A DNA stretch of 64,000 nt from Amycolatopsis sp. EV170708-02-1 (GTDB taxonomy: Bacteria > Actinomycetota > Actinomycetes > Mycobacteriales > Pseudonocardiaceae): contig NZ_CP092497.1 in the NCBI RefSeq assembly GCF_022479115.1, forward strand, positions 5,952,001 to 6,016,000, given 5' to 3'. The position numbers were made by a program, and so were the translations under genes. Below the pieces are notes generated by a model, which did no database searches, had not been told where the DNA came from, and saw only the letters and a list, made by a program, of their open reading frames with translations. Below are positions 30,628 through 47,582 of this stretch, piece by piece. The first letter of the stretch is position 1. Every line of letters starts with the position of its first letter.

Positions 30628-30667
30628 TTGACAACCTACCGGCCACAAATATACCTTCATGGTGAAG
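30628..30667 (+). promoter_or_regulatory. Promoter and candidate MarR operator before the P450 gene
   Basis: TTGACA (30628-30633) and TATACC (30650-30655) with a 16-bp spacer point toward the P450 gene. The perfect dyad CTTCATGGTGAAG (30655-30667) begins at the -10 and covers the expected start point, a good place for repression by the divergent MarR protein. Confidence 0.55.
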
Positions 30668-30691
30668 CTACTTTCTCATGAAGGAGTTCTT

Positions 30692-31798
30692 GTGCTCCCC
30701 GCCCCGTTCGCCGCGTCGACCCGCGGCATCACCGAACCCGACCCGGTGCGTCCCGCGCTGCGTGCCGCCGGTCCCCTCGTCGAAGTGGCCGCCCCCGAGG
30801 GCGGAAGCGCGTGGATCGTCACCGAGGAGGCGCTGGCCCGCGAAGTCCTCTCCGACCCGCGCATCGCCAAGGATCCGGCGCTGGCCCCTGCGGGCTGGAC
30901 CCAGCTCGAACAGACCGCCGCCGAACAGCCGTCCCTCACCACACTGGACGGGCCTGAACACACGCGTTTGCGGCGAGCGCACGCCCCACTGCTGAGCGCC
31001 AAACGGATCCAGGCTCAAGCGGACCGGATCCACCGGATCGCGCGCGCCCTGCTGACGGAACTCGGCGGCGGGACCGTCGACCTCATGGACGGCTTCTCCA
31101 CCCGGTTCCCGCTCACCGTGCTGCTCGACCTGCTCGGCATCCCGCTCGCCCTGCTCGACACCGCCGTCGACGCCTGCCGCCGCATGTCGGACCCCGAGCC
31201 GGGCGCCCAGGGCAAGGCCATCGCCGCGATCGCGGACCTCGCCGCCGCGGGACTGACCCCGAACCGGACGGGGCTCGCGACGGAACTGCGCGACAGCCTT
31301 CCACCCGGGACGTCCGAAAAGGACCTGCGGTATCACCTGTTCGCGTTGATCTTCGCCGGACAGCTGACCACCGACGCCTCGATCGGTTTCCTGATCTCGC
31401 GGCTGCTGAACGGGGACAAGGCCTCCGTGAACGACCTCGTCCGCGAAACGCTCAAGGACCATCCGCCCGCGCCGTTCACGCTCTGGCGGTTCACCACCGA
31501 GGAACTCGACCTCGCCGGGATCCGGCTCCCCGCCGGAGCGCCGGTGCTCGTCGACATCCAGGGCATCAACACGGACCCGGAGAGGAGACCGGGTCCGGAC
31601 CTGACTTTCGGCGCGGGGCCGCACTTCTGCGTCGGCGCCCAGCTCGCGCAGCTCGAACTGCGGGCGGTGGCGACGGTGCTGCGCACGGACTTCCCCGAAG
31701 CCCGGCTCGCCGTGCCGTACCGCGAACTCCGGCAGACGTTCCTCGGCGGCATCCAGGGCACGCGGCTCACCGGCCTGCCGGTACGGCTGCACAGCTGA
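30692..31798 (+). CDS. Cytochrome P450 with altered ExxR and I-helix motifs
   Basis: 368 residues from GTG 30692, which has AAGGAG 6 bases before it. The heme loop FGAGPHFCVG is intact (C313 ligates iron). Two otherwise conserved features differ: the K-helix motif is ETLK (E252, K255) instead of ExxR, and the I-helix reads AGQLTT (222-227) where the acid of AGxE/DT is leucine. The chain is also 30-40 residues shorter than usual bacterial P450s. Alternative or non-monooxygenase chemistry is possible. Divergent MarR regulator; no ferredoxin nearby. Confidence 0.88.
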   Translation: MLPAPFAASTRGITEPDPVRPALRAAGPLVEVAAPEGGSAWIVTEEALAREVLSDPRIAKDPALAPAGWTQLEQTAAEQPSLTTLDGPEHTRLRRAHAPLLSAKRIQAQADRIHRIARALLTELGGGTVDLMDGFSTRFPLTVLLDLLGIPLALLDTAVDACRRMSDPEPGAQGKAIAAIADLAAAGLTPNRTGLATELRDSLPPGTSEKDLRYHLFALIFAGQLTTDASIGFLISRLLNGDKASVNDLVRETLKDHPPAPFTLWRFTTEELDLAGIRLPAGAPVLVDIQGINTDPERRPGPDLTFGAGPHFCVGAQLAQLELRAVATVLRTDFPEARLAVPYRELRQTFLGGIQGTRLTGLPVRLHS

Positions 31799-34282: not shown

Positions 34283-34930
34283 ATGCGACTCCAGCACCAC
34301 CCGGAAATCCGCTCCGCCCACCCCGGCCTCGCCGTCGGCACGCTCCGAGCCGCCGGGATCACCCCGGAACTGCCGGTCGATCTCGAGAAGTTCGTCGCGC
34401 GGGCGACGCGACGGCTCTCGGACGGCCCGGAGTCCGAGTTCCCCGAGATCCAGGCGTGGCGGCGGGCGTTCGCCAAGATGGGCCTGAAGCCGACGCAGTA
34501 CCGCTGCGCGTCGGAGTCGTTGCTGCGCAGGCTGCGGAAGGAAGGCACGCTCCCCCGCATCCATCCGGTGATCGACCTCTGCAACGCGGTTTCGGTCGCC
34601 TACGCCATCCCGGTGGCGGTGCTCGACGTCGCGAAGATCAGCGGCTCGCTGGAAGTCCGCCACGCGCGAGGCGACGAGAAGTACGTGACCTTCGCCGGCA
34701 CGGTCGAGCAGCCGAACCCGGGCGAGGTGATCTTCGCCGACGAGGACGGTCAGGCCCACGCGCGGCGCTGGACGAACCGGCAGAGCGGGCACTCCGCGGT
34801 CTCCGCCACGACGTCCGACGTGCTGATCGTTTCCGAAGGGCTGCACGCGACGGCGGCGGAGGACGTCCGGCTGCTGATCGAGGCCATCGCGGGCGAACTC
34901 GCCGCGGCGGGCGTCGTCACGAGGCCTTGA
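34283..34930 (+). CDS. B3/B4 domain protein (PheT-like tRNA-binding fold)
   Basis: 215 residues. The domain seen as B3/B4 in phenylalanyl-tRNA synthetase beta chains is present as a stand-alone protein: EIQAWRRAFAKMGLKPTQYRCASESLLRRL, then LPRIHPVIDLCNAVSVAYAIPVAVLD. Such free proteins may edit mis-charged tRNA or tRNA-like substrates. It overlaps the convergent ku gene by 14 bp. It follows the LysE exporter by 11 bp, probably co-transcribed. Confidence 0.8.
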   Translation: MRLQHHPEIRSAHPGLAVGTLRAAGITPELPVDLEKFVARATRRLSDGPESEFPEIQAWRRAFAKMGLKPTQYRCASESLLRRLRKEGTLPRIHPVIDLCNAVSVAYAIPVAVLDVAKISGSLEVRHARGDEKYVTFAGTVEQPNPGEVIFADEDGQAHARRWTNRQSGHSAVSATTSDVLIVSEGLHATAAEDVRLLIEAIAGELAAAGVVTRP

Positions 34931-35846
34931 GCGCCTTCTCCAGACTCGCGCGGGTCATCTTCGACCGTCCCTTGATGTCCCGTTCCCTCGCCAGCTTGTC
35001 CAGATCCGCCTTCGACAACGAGGACAGGTCCTTCTTCGGCGCGGCCTTCTTCGCCCCGGACTTCTTCTTGGCCTTCCCGCTCTCCACGCTCTTCGAAAGC
35101 GCCTCGAACAGGTCGACGACCTTCGTCGGCTCCCCGGGTTCGGTGGCCGGCGTGATGGTGTCGCCCTTCTTCTTGGCCTTGATCAGCTCCCGCACGCGGT
35201 CGGTGTAGGTGTCGCGGTACTCCTCGGGGCGCCAGTCGTCGCTCATCGCGTCGATCAGGTTGACGGCCATGTCGAGTTCCTTGCCGCGCGCCTTCGCCTT
35301 GCCGGGCAGATCCGGCAACTGCTCGGCGGGATCCCGCAGGTCGGCCGCGAAATGGAGGGTGTTGAGCACCATCACGCCGTCGCCGGAGCGCACCAGCGCC
35401 AGGTACTCGCGGCCGCGCATGACGAATTTGGCGATCCCGGCCTTGCCCGAGGAATCCATCGCCTCGAGCAGCAGCGCGTACGGACGCTCGAACTCGTCCT
35501 TCGCGGGCGCGAGCCAATAGGTCTTGTCGAAGAACATCGGGTCGATGGCGTCCAGCTCGACGAAGCTTTCGATGTCGAGCGACTTCGAGCGACCGGGCGC
35601 GATCTCGTCCAGTTCCTCCGGCTCGACGACGACGTACTCGCCGCTGTCGAGTTCGTAACCCTTGACGATGTCCTCGTAGCCGACTTCCTCGCCGGTGCGC
35701 TCGTTCACCCGCCGGTACCGGATGCGGTCCTCGGTGCCGCGCTGGAACTGGCGGAAGTGCACCGTATGGTCTTCGACCGCGCTGTACAGACGGACCGGCA
35801 CGGTCACCAGACCGAGCGAAAGCGAACCGCTCCAGACCGGGCGCAT
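34917..35846 (-). CDS. ku: Ku protein, non-homologous end joining
   Basis: 309 residues. The conserved Ku core runs from MRPVWSGSLSLGLVTVPVRLYSA to about 255; YEDIVKGYEL, DPMFFDKTYWLAP and FVMRGREYLALVR are present. The C-terminal extension is Lys-rich (KAKKKSGAKKAAPKK) and ends in a SAP-like helix pair (LSKADLDKLARERDIKGRSK). Homodimeric Ku threads onto DNA ends and recruits ligase LigD, which is not adjacent here. ATG 35846 chosen over GTG 35852 by spacing to AGGAG. Confidence 0.93.
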   Translation of the reverse strand: MRPVWSGSLSLGLVTVPVRLYSAVEDHTVHFRQFQRGTEDRIRYRRVNERTGEEVGYEDIVKGYELDSGEYVVVEPEELDEIAPGRSKSLDIESFVELDAIDPMFFDKTYWLAPAKDEFERPYALLLEAMDSSGKAGIAKFVMRGREYLALVRSGDGVMVLNTLHFAADLRDPAEQLPDLPGKAKARGKELDMAVNLIDAMSDDWRPEEYRDTYTDRVRELIKAKKKGDTITPATEPGEPTKVVDLFEALSKSVESGKAKKKSGAKKAAPKKDLSSLSKADLDKLARERDIKGRSKMTRASLEKALKAS

Positions 35847-35905
35847 GGGCACACACTCCTCTCCTCCAGCGACTGGTACCCGCGATCGCGGCGGATCACA
35901 CCTGG

Positions 35906-36184: not shown

Positions 36185-36615
36185 GACGGCACACTCCTCT
36201 TCGGTCCAGTGTGCCGCGCTTTGCTGGGAGCAACCTGTGACAGGAAAAAAGGGCTACCAGGGCGGTTGGCCACCCCCAGTACGAAGGCCAACCGCCGCGG
36301 AGCCCCTACACACGGTTCGGCGCGCTGCCCCGTCGCTCCGACCCGCCAGCTGTGCCACCAGCTTTCCAAGGGCCTGCATCGGAATTACATCGGCTCTCCA
36401 CCGCCGGACATCCGCGCAGATCAGGGGTCGTGGGGCGTAGAATCGGGAAGGTTTCAGGGCACGCCCGCGCACGCTCGTTAGGCCGAATGCAGTACGGCGC
36501 ACCCCGCGCCGATCTGGCTGGAGGCCGAAGCGGTGGGCTAGGGTGCCGATCAGCCGGCGAACGGACTGGAGGTAGTGCGTGAGCACGCTCACGGCCTCGG
36601 ACGACATAGTCGCAT
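36185..36615. other. 431-bp intergenic region between divergent yggT and SARP genes
   Basis: No gene recognised. It holds a perfect 11-bp inverted repeat (36261-36271 and 36286-36296) with a 14-base loop. On the minus strand this is followed after about 10 bases by TTTTTT (36251-36246), so it could terminate leftward transcription or act as a leader element. Promoters of both flanking genes must be here but I could not pick them out. Confidence 0.45.
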
Positions 36616-39528
36616 ATGACCGCTGATCGTCTACCCGATTCGGCGGGATCGCCTCGAACCGCCGTCCACAGTTCCCAGCTCGGCTTTTCCGTTCTCGGCC
36701 CGCTCGAAGCCGAGGTCGACGGTGTCCCCGTCCGGCTGGGCGGACGCCGTGAACAGCGGCTCCTCGCCGCCCTGCTGATCAACGCGGGGCGGTTGGTCCC
36801 GGTGTCGTACCTGATCGGCACGATGTGGCCCGAAAACCCGCCGAAGACCGCGGTCCGCCAGGTCAGCAACGCGATCGCGCGGCTGCGGCACGACCTCGGG
36901 GTGGCCCGGTCGGCCGTGGTCACCACCGGTTCGGCGTACCGCGTCGTCATCAGCAGCGCCTCGCTCGACTCGGCCCGTTTCGAAGCCGACTACAACCAGG
37001 GCGCCGAACTCCTGGCGGCCGGGCTGATCTCCCAGGCGGCCGCCAAACTGGCCGACGCGCTCTCGCTCTGGCGCGGCCCGGCGTTCGACGGTCTCGAAGG
37101 CGACGCCATCGAGCAGACGGCACGACGCCTCGACGAAGAACGGCTCGCCGCCTGTGAGCTCCTCATCGGCGCCAGGCTCCGGCTCGGCGAGACCGAGGCG
37201 GCGGCTCGCGAGGCTTTCGACCTCGCCGCCTGGCATCCCACCCGCGAGACCCTGCAGTGCCTCACCATGCTCGCGCTCTACCGGGCGGGCCGCGGCGCCG
37301 ACGCGCTCCGGACGTTCGACCGGACCAGGATCGCGCTCGCCGAGGAACTCGGCGTCGATCCGAGCGCCGAGCTGAGCGCGCTCCACCAGCAGATTCTGCG
37401 CGCCGACACCGAACTGATGGAGGACGGCGCCCTCGTCCGGTACGGCGTCGGCGGGCTCCGGGCCGGAATGGACACCGGCGGGCGACGCGAGGACGCGGAC
37501 GCGCAGAAGGCGCTCTTCCCCCGTCCCGCCCAGCTGCCCGCGGACCTCCCCGCGTTCGGCGGCCGCGCCGCGGAACTGCGGACCGTCCTCGAGATCGGCC
37601 AGGACGGCTCCTCGGCGGGGCCGCGGCTGATCGCGATCGACGGTATGCCCGGGGTCGGGAAGACCGCGCTGGCCGTCCACGCCGCGCACCGGCTCGCCCC
37701 GCTGTTCCCGGACGGGCAGCTGTTCGTGAACCTCGAAGGGTTCTCCCCGGCCGGAGACCCCGTCGACCCGGGGACCGCGCTCGAAGCGCTGCTGCGGTCC
37801 CTCGGCATCCAGGGTTCGGACATCCCCGCCGGGACCGAACAGCGCGCGGCGTTGTTCCGCAGCTGCCTCGCCGGCAAACGTGTGCTCCTGGTGCTGGACA
37901 ACGCCATCGGGGCGACGCAGGTGAGCCCGCTGCTGCCCGGTGCGGCGAGCTGCTGCGTGCTGATCACCAGCCGCACCCGGCTCGTGGACCTCGACGGCGC
38001 CGAACTGCTCTCGCTGGAACCGTTCAGCCGGGCCGACGCGGTGGACCTGCTCGGCCGGATCGTCGGGCCGTCCCGGTTGAAGCGGGAGTCCCCGGACGCG
38101 GCCGACCAGGTCGCGAGCCTGTGCGGCGATCTCCCGCTCGCGCTGGCCGTCACGGCGAGCAGGCTGCGCGCGCGGGCGTCGTGGACGCTCGACTTCGTCG
38201 CCAGGCAGCTGCGCGACGAGCGGAACCGGTTCGGCGAGCTCACCGCCGGCGAACGCGACGTCGCGGGCGCGTTCCGGGTGTCCTATCTGAACTTGAGCGA
38301 AACCGAACGGCGGGTGTTCCGCCGGTTGAGCCACCATCCCGGCGCCGCGTTCGATCTCCACTCGACCGCGGCCCTGGCCGAAGTCGACCTCGCCGAAGCC
38401 CGGCGGCTCGCCGAACGCCTCGTCGACGTGAACCTCCTGCGCCAGCCGTCGATGGACCGCTACGAGATGCACGACCTCCTCCGCAGCTACGGTCGCGAGC
38501 TCCTGCTCGCCGAGGAGCCCGAACACCAGCGCGAGGCGATGATGCGGCGGCTGTTCGACTACTACCGCTGCACCGTCGCGGCCGCTATGGACTTCATCGA
38601 CCCGGATTCCGAGGAGGAGCCGGGCGGCCTCGAGGTGCCGAAGAGCGAGTTCGGACAGTCCTTCGCCGACTACGACCAAGCCGCGCACTGGATGGACGCG
38701 CAATGGCAGAACGTGCTGCCGGTGGCCGTCGCGATGAACAACCACCAGCAGTACTCGGACCTGGTGCCCTTCTGTTCGGCCGTGTGGCGCTACTTCGACA
38801 ACCGCGGCTACTACCGGCAGGCCAGAGAGCTGGAGACCCTCGCCCTGTCCGCCGCGCGGGTCACCGGGAACGTGGTCCTCGAGTACCAGGCCCTGCACAT
38901 GTACGCGCTGACCCTGTGGCGGCTCAACGAGTTCACCGAGGCGAACCGCCTGTTCAACGAGGTGTTCGAGCTGGCCGCGACCACCGGCGACATCCGGATG
39001 CAGTGCCGGGCCAGGGGCAACTCGGGGGTCACCCACTGGCTCAAGGGCGAGTCGGACGAGGCGATCGAACACCTCGGCTGGGTCCGCGAGACCGCCCATG
39101 CCCACGGCAGCGTGCTCATCGAGGCCCGCGCCAGGCACCGGATCGGGCTGATCCACACCGAGAGCAGGCGCTATCCCGAAGCCGCCGAGGAACTCGACCA
39201 GGCACTGCGACTGGCGCAGGAGAACGAATCCCCCGATCTCGAGGCGGAATGCTTTCTCGCCCTCGGTATCAATTCGCGCGGACTCGGCGACGGCGCGCTC
39301 GCGGTCAGCCAGTTGCGGACGGCGGTGGAAGTGCTCGAATCGACCGGGAATCGCAGCATGCTGCCCATCGCCCACAAGGAGATGGCGTTCGCGTTCGACA
39401 TTCTCGGTGATCGGCTGAATGCGGACCGTCATCGCCGGTTCGCATTGCGCCTCTACACCGATCTCGGCATTTCCGAGTCACCCGAGGTTCGTGAACTCAA
39501 ACAGCGCCTGAACGATTACTCGGCGTAA
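36616..39528 (+). CDS. AfsR-like SARP regulator with NB-ARC ATPase and TPR domains
   Basis: 970 residues. An OmpR-type winged helix (about 18-110; VRLGGRREQRLLAALLINAG, RQVSNAIARLR) and BTAD (about 115-265) form the SARP head. An NB-ARC domain follows with Walker A GMPGVGKTA (343-351), LLVLDNAIG and CVLITSRTRL, then a winged-helix linker (VAGAFRVSYLNLSETE), and about 300 C-terminal residues of TPR-like helices. SARPs activate secondary metabolite genes by binding 11-bp-spaced direct repeats; the large form integrates ATP and a protein or ligand signal. It is 81 bp upstream of a small peptide gene and a SagB-type dehydrogenase on the same strand, and very probably their activator. Confidence 0.92.
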   Translation: MTADRLPDSAGSPRTAVHSSQLGFSVLGPLEAEVDGVPVRLGGRREQRLLAALLINAGRLVPVSYLIGTMWPENPPKTAVRQVSNAIARLRHDLGVARSAVVTTGSAYRVVISSASLDSARFEADYNQGAELLAAGLISQAAAKLADALSLWRGPAFDGLEGDAIEQTARRLDEERLAACELLIGARLRLGETEAAAREAFDLAAWHPTRETLQCLTMLALYRAGRGADALRTFDRTRIALAEELGVDPSAELSALHQQILRADTELMEDGALVRYGVGGLRAGMDTGGRREDADAQKALFPRPAQLPADLPAFGGRAAELRTVLEIGQDGSSAGPRLIAIDGMPGVGKTALAVHAAHRLAPLFPDGQLFVNLEGFSPAGDPVDPGTALEALLRSLGIQGSDIPAGTEQRAALFRSCLAGKRVLLVLDNAIGATQVSPLLPGAASCCVLITSRTRLVDLDGAELLSLEPFSRADAVDLLGRIVGPSRLKRESPDAADQVASLCGDLPLALAVTASRLRARASWTLDFVARQLRDERNRFGELTAGERDVAGAFRVSYLNLSETERRVFRRLSHHPGAAFDLHSTAALAEVDLAEARRLAERLVDVNLLRQPSMDRYEMHDLLRSYGRELLLAEEPEHQREAMMRRLFDYYRCTVAAAMDFIDPDSEEEPGGLEVPKSEFGQSFADYDQAAHWMDAQWQNVLPVAVAMNNHQQYSDLVPFCSAVWRYFDNRGYYRQARELETLALSAARVTGNVVLEYQALHMYALTLWRLNEFTEANRLFNEVFELAATTGDIRMQCRARGNSGVTHWLKGESDEAIEHLGWVRETAHAHGSVLIEARARHRIGLIHTESRRYPEAAEELDQALRLAQENESPDLEAECFLALGINSRGLGDGALAVSQLRTAVEVLESTGNRSMLPIAHKEMAFAFDILGDRLNADRHRRFALRLYTDLGISESPEVRELKQRLNDYSA

Positions 39529-39534
39529 TTAGCC

Positions 39535-39582
39535 GTTCTGCTCCGGTACTCTGTTGGCGTAGGTATATTCGCTTGACCGGAG
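39535..39582 (+). promoter_or_regulatory. Candidate SARP-type promoter of the peptide gene
   Basis: GTTCT (39535) and GTACT (39546) are 11 bp apart, the spacing SARP proteins use, followed by the -10-like TATATT (39564-39569). An inverted repeat CTCCGGT (39541-39547) and ACCGGAG (39576-39582) brackets this. Each piece alone is weak; location between the SARP gene and its likely target is the main argument. Confidence 0.35.
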
Positions 39583-39609
39583 TAACCGTTCACGGAGAGG
39601 ATCAACGGC

Positions 39610-39729
39610 ATGCACGATGAGGACGACGAGGAGTTCTTGTACGAGCTCGAAGCGGAGTACAAGGCGCAGAGCACCTGGGGCGGGTTCGAGCCGCCGCACG
39701 GCGGGCCTCCTTTCCGCTCGCGACGCTGA
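39610..39729 (+). CDS. 39-residue putative RiPP precursor peptide
   Basis: ATG preceded by GGAGAGG, 40 codons to TGA. Residues 1-20 are leader-like: 9 acidic residues and the pattern FLYELEAEY. Residues 21-39 are core-like: W23, GG, F26, PP, H30, GG, PP, F35 and a basic end with R36, R38 and R39. There is no cysteine and only S21, T22 and S37 as hydroxyl residues. The gene lies between a SARP regulator and a SagB-type dehydrogenase, 53 bp before the latter. The acidic leader/basic core split, the ribosome site and the partner enzyme support a ribosomal peptide precursor; the modification is unknown. Confidence 0.6.
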   Translation: MHDEDDEEFLYELEAEYKAQSTWGGFEPPHGGPPFRSRR

Positions 39730-39782
39730 ATGACCTGAAGTATTCGGAAAGTATTACTGGGGACTGGGGCGCAAGACATTCG

Positions 39783-40856
39783 ATGCTGGTCAGGGTTTCC
39801 TCATGCGGAACGCTCTATTGGTCCGATGGTGACGTCGTCTGGGACGATCACCTCGGACATCGCCAGCTCAAACTCGCCGAAGGAACCGAACGTGTCCTGC
39901 GATGGTTCAGTTCTTGGCGAGAACCGGAATCGGTCCGCGACGCGGATGAGAATCCCGAGATCGGGGAAAGGCTCGTCCGTATCGCGCGAGCGATGATCCG
40001 GTACGAAGTACTGGTGGTGAAAGGTTCTCACCGGCAACAACGCGAAGAAGAGATCCTTCGCGATTGGGGTCCTTGGGGAACGTCCGCGCGGGCGTTTCAC
40101 TTCGGCACCCGCTCGTTGCGCGAGACCGAGTTCACGACCAGCGAAACGACGGCGAAAACCTTGCTGGAGAAGGCGAAGGTCAGCCCTCCGCCTTCTCCAG
40201 TGAGGCCGTCGGGCGAGCACCACACGATCGCGCTGCCCGAACCGTCACCGGAACCACTGAACACGATCGGGCTCGGCGACGCGCTGAGCCGGCGCAGAAG
40301 TGTCCGCGAGTTCGGTGAAGAACCCTTGCGGCTGCCCGATTTGAGCGCGCTTCTCACGGCGGCCAGGGCGACGAGGCCGGAAACGCATCCCGACATCCCC
40401 GCCACCGGGAACGTCTTCAAGACGAGCCCTTCGGGCGGGGCGCGGCATCCGACAGAGGTGTACGTCTACGCGAGGAACGTCGAGGGCCTGGCCCAGGGCG
40501 TCTACCACTACGACGGCTTCCGGCACGGCCTCACCCCGCTGGACGGCAAGATCGACGACGACCAGCTGATCGCGCTCGCCGGCGACCAGCAGTGGGCTGG
40601 GAACGCGGGCGCGCTGCTGATCTACACCAGCGTCATCGAGCGGAACCAGTGGAAGTACCCGGTGAGCCGCACGTACCGCGTGCTGCTGATGGACGTCGGC
40701 CACCTCAGCCAAACCGTGTACCTGCTGGCGACCGCGCTGGGCCTGAACGTCACGTTCACCGCCGCGCTTCGCGACGAACTGGTCGAGGACCTCCTCGGCT
40801 GCGATCCCGCGAACGAGCTGGTGCTCGGGATGTCGGTGGTCGGCACTCGCCGGTGA
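39783..40856 (+). CDS. SagB/ThcOx-type flavin dehydrogenase
   Basis: 357 residues. The C-terminal nitroreductase-fold domain (about 165-357) has the FMN-phosphate motif RRSVREF (171-177), the SagB hallmark SPSGGARHPTE (215-225) and LLMDVGHLSQTVYLLATALGLN. The N-terminal 110 residues form a separate small domain (VWDDHLGHRQLKLAEGTERVLRWF) like that of SagB/BcerB proteins, which may recognise the peptide. Known family members oxidise azolines to azoles or act on other peptide bonds with FMN. No YcaO cyclodehydratase is present. Follows the small peptide gene on the same strand. Confidence 0.88.
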   Translation: MLVRVSSCGTLYWSDGDVVWDDHLGHRQLKLAEGTERVLRWFSSWREPESVRDADENPEIGERLVRIARAMIRYEVLVVKGSHRQQREEEILRDWGPWGTSARAFHFGTRSLRETEFTTSETTAKTLLEKAKVSPPPSPVRPSGEHHTIALPEPSPEPLNTIGLGDALSRRRSVREFGEEPLRLPDLSALLTAARATRPETHPDIPATGNVFKTSPSGGARHPTEVYVYARNVEGLAQGVYHYDGFRHGLTPLDGKIDDDQLIALAGDQQWAGNAGALLIYTSVIERNQWKYPVSRTYRVLLMDVGHLSQTVYLLATALGLNVTFTAALRDELVEDLLGCDPANELVLGMSVVGTRR

Positions 40857-40865
40857 CGGCGGTTG

Positions 40866-40994
40866 ATGCTGTTCGGCGGCGGAGGCGCCTGGCCGGATTT
40901 CGGCGGCGGCTCTTCGCGGCCGCCGCGGGATCGCGCGGGCATGGCGCCGGGCCTGGCTCCGGGCCTGGCGGGGCATCGAAGAAGTACGTCGTGA
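40866..40994 (+). CDS. Possible second small peptide gene
   Basis: An ATG 10 bp after the dehydrogenase stop opens 43 codons. The product is Gly-rich at first (MLFGGGGAWPDFGGGSSR), then PPR and a Gly/Ala/Pro tail. Third codon positions are mostly G or C over the first 33 codons. It shares WxxF plus GG and PP with the core of the 39-residue peptide, but has no acidic leader and only a weak ribosome site (GGCGG). An overlapping GTGA-started frame exists but is Arg-rich and shadow-like. Low confidence. Confidence 0.3.
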   Translation: MLFGGGGAWPDFGGGSSRPPRDRAGMAPGLAPGLAGHRRSTS

Positions 40995-41007
40995 TGGCGG
41001 TCCTTGA

Positions 41008-41040
41008 TCAACCCGTTGCCGCTTTTCGGCGACGGGTTGA
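41008..41040. terminator. Hairpin after the peptide/dehydrogenase unit
   Basis: 14-bp stem (41008-41021 with 41027-41040, one G-T pair) with loop CTTTT. No T run follows, but it is the strongest hairpin downstream of the dehydrogenase and likely ends that transcript. Both small peptide candidates lie upstream of it. Confidence 0.6.
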
Positions 41041-41215
41041 ACGGCGAGGTTCGTCCGAGCCGCCAGGTTCCTCGGTGAGGGGTTCGTGGGGCAGTCAGCT
41101 GATATCGAGCCGGGTTCTCTGGTGAGCGCATGGCCGTTTTCCGGCAACCGGGTCACGGTGGCGCCGCACAGGTCCCTCCATGCGGCCGATAGCGATCGCA
41201 ACGCACGACAACGAC

Positions 41216-41594
41216 TCAGAATGGTGACTCGTCAGCGCGGGGTGCGCGCAGTGGCGGGTGAGCCGTCGTAGCTCTGTCCGGTGGGTTTGGTGATGGTGAG
41301 GGGCCCATCCAGCCGGGTTTGTCGTTCAGGCATCGACCAGCTCGGTATCGGCGGTATGACCACCGAATTGCCAGGGCGACGAGTGGTCGAGGTCGCAGGC
41401 CTGGGATGCGGTGGCTGCCGGGTCTTCGGTACTCACGGTCCCTGCCCCGTCGCCAATTCCTGACAACGCCATCGTCGTTTTCCGGCAACAGCTCAGAACC
41501 CGCACGAACTCGTCCGCTCCAGCCATGGGTCGATACCGATCCCGCCCGAGGTCGAGAACCTGCCCCGAGGACGGGCCGGTGATCCGCCGCAGCA
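41216..41594 (-). pseudogene. Decayed 3' copy of the neighbouring DUF222/HNH gene
   Basis: On the minus strand the segment matches the end of the intact HNH gene: SGQVLDLGRDRYRPMAGADEFVRV, then after an interruption QACDLDHSSPWQFGGHTADTELVD, and finally a tail ending ESPF like PPPF in the intact gene. The arginine/cysteine part of the HNH region is replaced by a 52-bp repeat, and frameshifts are present. It is thus a partial duplicate, not a functional nuclease. Confidence 0.7.
41448..41499. repeat. 52-bp repeat, copy A (inside HNH pseudogene)
   Basis: Begins CGTCGCCAATT and ends GGCAACAGCTCAGAAC. It matches copy B at 41620-41671 at 46 of 52 positions, same orientation. It interrupts the pseudogene exactly in the HNH coding region. 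Confidence 0.75.
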
Positions 41595-45105: not shown

Positions 45106-45477
45106 TCAGCGCGCCGCCGGACGGTGGGGTTTCGCCGCCGAATGCAGTGCCGGGATGTCGCGATCGATGTGGTCGGCGTGGAACAACGCCTGCGCGAGCA
45201 GGCCACGGACGTGATCGTTGGCCGCCGAGTAGTAGACGAACGTCCCCTCACGGCGGCCTTTCACCACGCCCGCGAGCCGCAGTTTCGCGAGGTGCTGGCT
45301 GACCGCCGTCGGCGCCGCGCCCGCCAGCTCCGCGAGACAGGCGACCGAGGACTCGCCCTGCAGGAGCGCCCAGAGGACCTTCACCCTCGTCGGATCCGCG
45401 AGCAGCCGGAACGTCTCCGCGGCCAGGTGGACCTGCTCCTCGGTGGGCATCTCGAAATCCGGAACCGACTCGTGCAT
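45106..45477 (-). CDS. ArsR/SmtB-family metal sensor, CzrA/NmtR-like
   Basis: 123 residues. Winged helix with APTAVSQHLAKLRLAGVV and the wing RREGTFVYYS. The alpha5 zinc site of CzrA (DxH...HxxH) is present as N87, H89, H100 and H103 in NDHVRGLLAQALFHADH, so only the first acidic ligand is changed (Asp to Asn). A lone Cys (C47) sits where alpha3 sensors have a pair. Best read as a zinc (or cobalt/nickel) repressor controlling the divergent CDF exporter. Confidence 0.85.
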   Translation of the reverse strand: MHESVPDFEMPTEEQVHLAAETFRLLADPTRVKVLWALLQGESSVACLAELAGAAPTAVSQHLAKLRLAGVVKGRREGTFVYYSAANDHVRGLLAQALFHADHIDRDIPALHSAAKPHRPAAR

Positions 45478-45484
45478 ACCAGGA

Positions 45485-45532
45485 GGATAGCCGCTATCCT
45501 TCTGGCTGCGTACCTGCATGACTGCGCAGGTA
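45485..45532. promoter_or_regulatory. Two palindromes in the arsR-CDF divergent promoter
   Basis: GGATAG-CCG-CTATCC (45485-45499) and TACCTGC-N8-GCAGGTA (45511-45532) lie side by side in the 75-bp gap. The second, with 7-bp arms, has the size of an ArsR-family 12-2-12 type operator. Both flank the expected promoters, so the adjacent sensor can shut off both directions. Confidence 0.55.
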
Positions 45533-45552
45533 TCAGAACAGTGAGGTGGAAG

Positions 45553-46539
45553 ATGCCCGGGCATGGACACAGTCATGGCCACCAGCCTGCGAAGAGCCGT
45601 CTCCGGCACCTTCTGACCCCGCACAGCCACGACAGCGCAGACCGCGTCGACAGCGCGTTGGAGACCAGCAAACGCGGCGTCCGGACGCTGATCTGGTCGT
45701 TCGCCGCCCTGTTCCTCACCGCCGTCGTCCAGCTCGCGCTCGTGCTGATCACCGGATCGGTGGCCTTGCTCGGCGACACGATCCACAACTTCGCCGACGC
45801 GCTGACCGCGCTCCCGCTCGGTATCGCCTTCCTGCTCGGCCGCCGCGCCGCCACCCGCCGCTACACCTACGGGCTCGGCCGCGCCGAAGACCTGGCCGGT
45901 GTGCTCGTCGTGCTGCTCATCGCCGCTTCGGCCTTCCTCGCCGGGTACGAATCCGTGCAGCGGCTGCTCGATCCGCGGCCGGTCCAGCATCTGTGGGTGG
46001 TCGCGGCGGCGGGGGTCATCGGCTTCGCGGGCAACGAACTCGTGGCCCGGTATCGGATCACCGTCGGCCGCGAGATCGGCTCGGCCGCACTGGTCGCGGA
46101 CGGCCTGCATGCCCGCACCGACGGGTTCACGTCGCTCGCCGTCGTGCTCGGCGCCGTCGGGGTGGGGCTGGGGTTCCCGATGGCCGACCCGATCATCGGT
46201 CTCGCCATCACCGTCGCGATCCTGTTCGTCCTGCGCGACGCGGCCAAGGAGGTCTTCCGCCGCCTGATGGACGCCGTCGACCCGGCCGACGTCGATCGTG
46301 CCGAACACGCGGCCGCCGAGGTCCCCGGCGTGCTCGGCACGCGGGACCTGCGGATGCGCTGGATCGGGCACAGTCTGCGCGCGGAGCTGGCGGTGTCGGT
46401 CGAGGCGGGGCTGACGGTCACCGAGGCGCACCGCCTTGCCCACCGCGTCGAGGCGCGGCTGCGTGAGGTCCTCCCGCGTCTCGCGGAAGCGGTCGTGCAC
46501 ACCGAACCGGTGAACGCCCATGAGATCGTCAGCGGGTGA
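45553..46539 (+). CDS. Cation diffusion facilitator, zinc/cadmium-type exporter
   Basis: 328 residues. His-rich start (HGHSHGH, 4-10), six membrane segments, and both transport-site motifs in HxxxD form: HNFAD in TM2 (78-82) and HARTD in TM5. That arrangement is characteristic of Zn/Cd-selective CDFs rather than the DxxxD Mn/Fe type. The C-terminal cytoplasmic domain (about 225-320) is present. Divergent ArsR-type sensor upstream. Confidence 0.9.
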   Translation: MPGHGHSHGHQPAKSRLRHLLTPHSHDSADRVDSALETSKRGVRTLIWSFAALFLTAVVQLALVLITGSVALLGDTIHNFADALTALPLGIAFLLGRRAATRRYTYGLGRAEDLAGVLVVLLIAASAFLAGYESVQRLLDPRPVQHLWVVAAAGVIGFAGNELVARYRITVGREIGSAALVADGLHARTDGFTSLAVVLGAVGVGLGFPMADPIIGLAITVAILFVLRDAAKEVFRRLMDAVDPADVDRAEHAAAEVPGVLGTRDLRMRWIGHSLRAELAVSVEAGLTVTEAHRLAHRVEARLREVLPRLAEAVVHTEPVNAHEIVSG

Positions 46540-47582
46540 CGCCGTCCGACAACGACATCCGCGCCGTCCGTGCCCGCGCGCAACTGCTGACCGAGCCGGC
46601 CGCGGACGTGCTCACCGTCGCCACCTCCGTCGCCGCCGTCCAGGCGCAAGCGACGCCTGCCGCGCGGCTCGCCTTCCGGGCCCGTAGCCGGGGCCTGACC
46701 GCGCAGGACGTCGACGCGTCCCGCGAGGTGGCGCGCACCTGGCTGATGCGCAAGACGCTCCACTCGGTACCGACGGTGGATCTCCGCTGGCTGAACCGCC
46801 TGTTCGGGCCGCGAAACGTCCAGGCGGGGCAGGGCCGCCGCCGGCAGCTGGGCCTCACCGACGAACTCTGCGACCGAGCGCTCGACAAGCTCCAGGATCT
46901 CTTGCCCGGCAAGGCACTCACCCGCCAAGAGATCCTCGACGGCTTGGCCGCCGACGGCATCGCGCTCGACGCGAAGTCTCAGGCCCCGGCCCATCTCCTG
47001 GCGTATGCGGCCAATCGCGGGTTGCTGTGCCGGGGCCACGACGCCGGGACAGAGCCGACGTACGTGCTCCTCGACGAATGGACCACCGAAGACCATGCCC
47101 CGGCGGAACCGCATACCGAGCTCGCCCACCGGTACCTGACCGCGTACGGCATCGCGACCGCCGAGGACTTCGGTGCTTGGTCCGGGCTCCCGCTCGGACT
47201 CTGCCGCAAGGCTTTCGCCGCACTGGATCTCGTGCCCGCCGGTGGCGGTTTCGCGCTTGCGCGGACCGAGCTGACCGCTCTTCCCTGTCCGCCGCGTCTG
47301 CTCGGCGCCTTCGACACGTACCTGCTGGGCTACCGCGACCGCGATCTGCTCCTCGATCCGGCCGAGGCGAAACGCGTCAACGCCGGTGGCGGGATGATCG
47401 CGCCGACCGTACTCGTCAACGGCCGGATCGCCGGAACCTGGCACACCAAGCGGACCGCGAAGCAGACGAAGGTCGTCGTGGAGCCCTTCGCCGTGCTTCC
47501 TCGATCCGCCATCACCGGGCTGGAGTCCGAAGTGGACGATTACGGCCGCTTCCTCGGCGAGACGACCGTCCTCGTCATTTGA
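46536..47582 (+). CDS. Winged helix DNA-binding domain protein (HTH_42 type)
   Basis: 348 residues; GTG overlapping the CDF stop (GTGA). The pattern [22 protein letters not shown] near the N-terminus and later [11 protein letters not shown] and GTWHTKR match the HTH_42 family (relatives of AlkX/DUF1006), thought to act in DNA repair (interstrand crosslink glycosylase type) or regulation. Co-transcribed with the metal exporter by overlap. Overlaps the convergent epoxide hydrolase gene by 8 bp. Confidence 0.75.

Follow-up and report, generated by a model that had tools for sequence, protein, structure and literature searches.

A 39-residue peptide conserved beside a SARP regulator and a SagB-type dehydrogenase in Amycolatopsis: a candidate compact RiPP-type unit

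The stretch of DNA analysed here, called the window below, comprises 64,000 nt of the soil actinobacterium Amycolatopsis sp. EV170708-02-1 (GCF_022479115.1; NZ_CP092497.1, positions 5,952,001-6,016,000), whose 9.66 Mb genome is a single contig. It contains a unit of three plus-strand open reading frames (ORFs): a SARP-type activator of 970 aa (36616-39528), a peptide of 39 aa (39610-39729) and a SagB/ThcOx-type flavin mononucleotide (FMN) dehydrogenase of 357 aa (39783-40856). A first-pass annotation of the window had proposed the same three genes, and its coordinates, lengths and strand all match ours. It had carried the locus on to position 40994; the segment 40857-40994 shows no conservation in 19 genomes and holds no gene, and an ORF at 40863-40994 was dropped as a fourth gene because it is unconserved among relatives. 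Our computations show that the 39-aa peptide is a conserved protein, stably paired with SagB, and the unit has features of a locus for a ribosomally synthesised and post-translationally modified peptide (RiPP).

The peptide gene is preceded by a ribosome binding site, GGAGAGG (39594-39600, plus strand), 9 bases before the ATG. The same seven bases stand in 18 of 19 orthologous loci, the sole exception being GTAGAGG at L027, which bears out the earlier description of a tiny gene with a good ribosome site. Of 80 genomes in a genus-wide search with SagB, 23 contain relatives at E <= 1e-40: 19 orthologues at 88-100% identity (own genome counted; the A. keratiniphila copy is 96% identical), one protein at 55% and three at 33-36%. 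At all 19 orthologous loci, which form class A below, the precursor-like peptide MHDEDDEEFLYELEAEYKAQSTWGGFEPPHGGPPFRSRR lies at about -180 to -50 from SagB, so that the conservation of the small ORF on which the first-pass reading had been staked is found, as is the pairing of a conserved short precursor gene with a modifying enzyme expected of a RiPP locus. Over the 171 pairs among these genomes (own included), the proportions of synonymous (pS) and nonsynonymous (pN) differences in the peptide codons are 0.240 and 0.060, a pN/pS ratio of 0.25 (0.17 for SagB); variable columns number 10, 11 and 30 at codon positions 1, 2 and 3, and length differences among copies are whole codons. For 17 equal-length copies the frame-0 ratio is 0.18, and 0 of 200 column shuffles were as low (mean 0.89, minimum 0.36). 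The shifted frames gave pS/pN of 0.042/0.090 and 0.048/0.073, with pN exceeding pS; an overlapping 38-aa frame at 39617 was dropped, since the non-zero frames lack a coding pattern.

Among the 19 peptides, E8, F9, L10, E12, E14, A15, E16 and Y17 are invariant in the first half, and W23, G24, F26, two Pro, one Gly, PPF and an Arg in the second. We propose an acidic leader of residues 1-19 (39610-39666, plus strand), with the motif EFLxE(L/I)EAEY, and a core of residues 20-39 (39667-39726, plus strand), with invariant W23, F26 and F35, the boundary between them being putative. Cys is absent from all 19 peptides, in keeping with the first-pass statement that the peptide has none, and no position is invariably Ser, Thr or Cys; in the L027 peptide Gln-Gln replaces the Ser-Thr of other members. 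No Pfam family was found for the 39-aa peptide, and no NCBIfam family for it, for six 64-81-aa proteins from distant loci or for a set of five peptides.

Assignment of the enzyme to the SagB type was upheld by its score of 125.5 bits against TIGR03605 (SagB family peptide dehydrogenase), above the cut-off of 78.4. Its nitroreductase (FMN) domain spans residues 169-352 (40287-40838; PF00881, 73.2 bits), and W290-K291-Y292 (40650-40658) aligns with the WKY of ThcOx. The W and Y are invariant across 45 relatives and the K is replaced by R in some; from the azoline dehydrogenase literature we presume the Lys-Tyr pair to be catalytic. Residues 1-80 (39783-40022) form a predicted leader-binding domain resembling a RiPP recognition element (RRE): an AlphaFold2 model of residues 1-97 has a pLDDT of 94.5, and the first seven Foldseek rows obtained with the N-terminal domain are RRE chains complexed with leaders. 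The full-length fold matches ThcOx, with an FMN nitroreductase fold in a ThcOx-type layout, and the matches also include McbC and cyclodipeptide oxidases; PflD, discussed below, was not among them. The enzyme is predicted, then, to join a leader-binding fold, as expected in a RiPP cluster, to a ThcOx-like FMN domain.

The unit is one form within a broad SagB family, the other members of which are found with different peptides or with ATP-grasp, YcaO-TfuA or racemase-like genes. A sample of 128 loci was reduced to 93 representatives below 93% identity, in which the slot before SagB holds a short peptide in 48 cases and an ATP-grasp gene in 26 (class K), with 5 assigned to class J, 11 to class x and 3 by clade only. 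The 48 assignable peptides make up eleven classes (A, A', A'' and B to I); we set the labels on the tree from peptides and neighbours, or from SagB position for L083, L130, L143 and L098. Among the 13 groups on the tree, ten are single clades (A, A' and B to I), and K, J and x require 3, 3 and 6 changes. The class A leader motif is common to some other classes. The form [AVI]FE-x(2,7)-Y occurs in 14/14 peptides of classes A', A'', B, D and F, and the looser [FLI]E-x(2,7)-Y in class A (5/5) and part of class C (2/6), being missed by C (4/6), E (5/5) and G (1/1). With one peptide per class, and with a pattern picked after the peptides were seen, the motif is present in 6 of 9; shuffling gave a mean of 1.3, and 5 of 5000 shuffles scored as high. 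Peptides are Cys-free in 42 of 48 cases. In class I (11 peptides), aromatic residues fill 41 of 154 places in the last 14 positions versus 2 of 150 before them, and in seven loci inspected (L139-L142, L144, L146, L147) each genome has different flanking genes, as though the pair travelled by itself.

The first gene of the unit is a SARP/NB-ARC/TPR regulator, as first annotated: Pfam finds Trans_reg_C (28.5 bits) and BTAD (136.2 bits), both above cut-off, together with NB-ARC and TPR domains. When 82 loci were searched with this protein and two duplicates dropped (L157 = L043, L158 = L081), a SARP was found nearby in 23 of 24 loci of five classes (A 11/11, A' 2/2, A'' 1/1, B 4/4, C 5/6), in 1 of 27 class K loci and in 0 of the 29 remaining loci, although one could be missed where flanks are short (e.g. 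L059, L092, L094, L102). Because the 11 class A loci are a single syntenic lineage rather than independent events, we weigh this linkage by the five classes and not by loci. The source genome has 46 BTAD matches, for a chance expectation of about 0.1 per 21 kb, and the class B SARP at L052 has a domain set identical to that of the window's SARP. Within the 81 bases between SARP and peptide (39529-39609, plus strand), a block appears by eye as conserved as the genes in the 19-genome alignment; it is likely to be the peptide-SagB pair's own promoter or operator. A scan of 36300-41300 found no sigma-70-type promoter consensus.

We consider it rather likely that these genes form a compact RiPP-type unit in which a SARP controls the leader-guided dehydrogenation of the peptide by SagB, with no need of a YcaO cyclodehydratase. 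The SARP would activate both downstream genes. As a leader, the peptide's acidic N-terminal half may then dock on the RRE-like domain, a step we infer from the predicted fold and from conservation, and the FMN domain would take two hydrogens from a residue in the Trp/Gly/Phe/Pro half, most plausibly by alpha,beta-dehydrogenation at W23, F26 or F35 (-2 Da). A YcaO would be dispensable because the peptide has no Cys and no invariant Ser or Thr, and because related pairs occur in YcaO-free genomes; leader removal and export would rely on genes elsewhere. Leader docking with two-electron oxidation of an aromatic core residue is preferred because it uses every conserved part. Judged from sequence, the 39-residue peptide is probably oxidised by the adjoining flavin enzyme. 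More tentatively, a distinct Actinomycetota RiPP class can be imagined, in which a 22-47-residue peptide has one RRE-fused FMN dehydrogenase as its only maturase and receives from it alpha,beta-dehydro aromatics (dehydroTrp/dehydroPhe) or an aromatic crosslink; the window unit and the two-gene islands of class I would be its simplest members.

Several observations weigh against leader-guided, YcaO-free dehydrogenation. Every one of the 20 Amycolatopsis genomes searched, 19 with a class A locus plus the class A'' genome G032, encodes one YcaO or more, so help in trans may be possible for class A. The class A unit and its immediate neighbourhood showed neither a protease nor an exporter. No Foldseek E-value for the N-terminal domain is below 0.001, and BmdC, an oxidase of nonribosomal peptide synthetase (NRPS) pathways, shares the N-terminal fold. 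The class H peptides lack W, F and Y in their C-terminal halves, so the chemistry cannot be aromatic throughout the family. Finally, we assigned no slot partner to the 11 class x representatives (in Microbispora and Dactylosporangium, up- and downstream scans found no short ORF behind a ribosome site), the five of class J carry longer upstream proteins instead of a peptide, and L083, L130 and L143 are labelled by SagB clade only.

If the unit makes a RiPP, the oxidation could also be an aromatic crosslink, an oxidative decarboxylation or a different two-electron change. The sequence leaves the target residue and chemistry unfixed, and the C-terminal halves of classes H and E differ, but the bonds known to be formed by nitroreductase-fold peptide oxidases (ThcOx, McbC, PflD and the cyclodipeptide oxidases) are C=C or C=N, and we regard such alternatives as unlikely. 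A role for SagB in making a small molecule or an NRPS product, such as the conversion of a siderophore oxazoline to an oxazole, with the peptide as bystander or regulator, seems improbable to us. The fold shared with BmdC would suit it, and oxazole formation in the nocobactins of Nocardia goes together with SagB-like genes (PMC7413640); against it stand the conservation of the peptide, the recurring peptide-SagB slot, the clade-bound peptide classes and the finding that none of 20 window ORFs scanned with Pfam contains an NRPS domain.

There remains the question of YcaO. The first-pass annotation had placed none at the locus, and indeed the only YcaO found in the genome with the Pfam model lies about 1 Mb from the unit; 1.3 kb from that YcaO is a nitroreductase match that, at 21.9 bits, is weak and falls short of the cut-off. 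SagB enzymes usually oxidise azolines made by YcaO cyclodehydratases. A YcaO encoded with the dehydrogenase and conserved Cys, Ser or Thr in the core are the marks of thiazole/oxazole-modified microcins (TOMMs) and azole RiPPs; neither is present here. With the same model, 12 of 43 other family genomes, several of them drafts and classes D and x included, have no YcaO: class E 5/5, B 1/4 (L052), F 1/4, H one and I four, none being of class A. Family members do not, therefore, require YcaO in general. Nor is it the constant neighbour that was to have counted against the peptide pathway: in the sampled SagB loci a short local model, built on three sequences and insensitive to remote YcaO, finds it beside SagB at three loci, all of class D. 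A split azole pathway, in which a YcaO from another part of the genome installs azolines on the peptide and SagB oxidises them, has the family's usual partner and the YcaO of all 20 Amycolatopsis genomes in its favour, but the Cys-free peptides, the L027 substitution, the distant YcaO and the YcaO-free genomes led us to drop it as very improbable.

Partner genes vary among the other classes. Genes of a single major facilitator superfamily (MFS) cluster, identified with Pfam on two members, follow SagB in class B (4/4), C (6/6) and F (3/3 inspected) and in none of class A. The three Nonomuraea loci of class D (L059, L072, L073) carry peptide, SagB, YcaO, TfuA and MFS genes (Pfam on L072), and their peptides are Cys-free. 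In class K an ATP-grasp gene directly precedes SagB; 5/5 tested match best to TIGR04187 (ATP-grasp ribosomal peptide maturase), at 89-109 bits, below the cut-off of 350. This arrangement was seen at L053-L058, L060-L071, L074, L075, L077, L091, L095, L100 and L109, and was judged by tail only at L094, L135 and L136; L053 has a JmjC-type gene behind SagB. A conserved short ORF of 37-54 aa (MSLEELAAQLRRGEIEDRALAEYAAEY..) precedes the ATP-grasp gene in 12/12 loci inspected. The Rhodococcus versions resemble the Hoyosella peptides of class E, which showed no ATP-grasp gene of this kind next to them, and the class K ATP-grasp cluster (c3) that would mark a graspetide is absent beside class A SagB.

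Other loci in the sample were diverse. A second SagB clade (L031, L139-L142, L144, L146, L147, L152, L154, L155) has peptides of the loose form MRxIxMKARPVVRxxR with a W/F/Y-rich C-terminus, often behind a perfect ribosome site, and in a related clade (L029, L030, L134, L137, L138) the peptide ends ..RRKKTRGNLLSNHPA or similarly. Upstream of the L138 pair lie a permease and ATPase resembling an iron-type ATP-binding cassette (ABC) system, plus an MFS-like gene, and from its sequence L143 seems to have a similar permease and ATPase; these neighbours hint at a role connected with metals. Peptides at L090, L092, L093 and L151 contain one or two Cys (such as ..DDYDQELTCLEPP..), and the first three loci have alanine-racemase-like and MFS genes after SagB. 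Distant relatives in Actinomycetota, Pseudomonadota and Bacteroidota (L099, L102, L106, L108) follow proteins ending YxYxG(D/N)TCC(A/V), and L049 is of a Kibdelosporangium/Umezawaea type.

In the window, the unit is flanked by a Ku gene (34917-35852) on one side and, further off on the other, by cation-efflux and AlkZ-like genes (45124-47582). Searching the 80 genomes for empty sites with the AlkZ-like gene gave 22 matches, 18 at >=81% identity, all in locus-bearing genomes, and four at 50-54%. Radical SAM and P450 genes had been declared missing: Pfam, run on 20 ORFs of the window (the three unit genes and neighbours), found no radical SAM, and the P450 part holds for the unit and scanned neighbours, not for the region beyond Ku, where a P450-like gene lies 4.8 kb upstream (30659-31798). 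DNA 3' of SagB varies among the 19 class A genomes; at 41023-41035 it reads TTTTCGGCGACGG, with resembling sequences by eye at the equivalent place in several relatives. A longer form occurs once in the source genome, and a search for this repeat-like motif showed low abundance.

Genome mining reads SagB-type oxidases as YcaO-dependent azole makers; conserved peptide-SagB pairs in YcaO-free genomes suggest another job for the family. Systems of two or three genes are very small and directly testable, and related pairs across many bacteria point to a little-explored route to modified peptides. Should the lone enzyme prove to dehydrogenate Trp or Phe under leader guidance, it would make a simple biocatalyst and bring many easily overlooked short-peptide loci into view.

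Among known systems, the azoline dehydrogenases ThcOx, McbC and SagB of cyanobactins and TOMMs come close. ThcOx joins an FMN nitroreductase domain to a peptide-clamp (RRE) domain (PMC5108345), and our enzyme shares both domains, the WKY and the full-length fold; the window unit differs in lacking a YcaO partner and a conserved heterocyclisable residue in its peptide. PflD, a nitroreductase fused to a multinuclear non-haem iron-dependent oxidase (MNIO) in the pfl/pos RiPP clusters of Pseudomonas, was reported in 2025 to convert Phe to Z-dehydroPhe (-2 Da) through its nitroreductase domain with no YcaO, and its authors call YcaO-unassociated nitroreductases rare and functionally uncharacterised (PMC12636437). 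Both systems combine a nitroreductase with a ribosomal peptide, predicted as substrate for the window SagB, in the absence of YcaO. By description they are set apart: PflD by its MNIO fusion, HEXXH enzyme, GNAT and large leader, the window SagB by its RRE-like fusion, 39-aa peptide and SARP. The compact peptide pathway switched on by a SARP that was first annotated accordingly keeps its recurring SARP linkage and predicted leader-binding fold, and loses its isolation to the broad SagB family and to this precedent. In branch 6 ATP-grasp loci of a graspetide survey (PMC8939145), a SagB-like nitroreductase adjoins the predicted precursor; our class K loci fit that branch and their short ORFs carry a somewhat similar ..AEYAAEY.. 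(by eye), whereas the class A unit has no ATP-grasp and a SARP-peptide-SagB unit is not described in the survey text available. TIGR04511 (putative peptide maturation dehydrogenase) is the top-scoring profile for the whole enzyme, at 170.8 bits below its cut-off of 240. In the openly licensed PMC literature we found no title or abstract on a SARP-peptide-SagB unit. Its parts are ordinary and its arrangement is unusual and conserved, which makes it no new kind of system and a variant of RiPP-type maturation.
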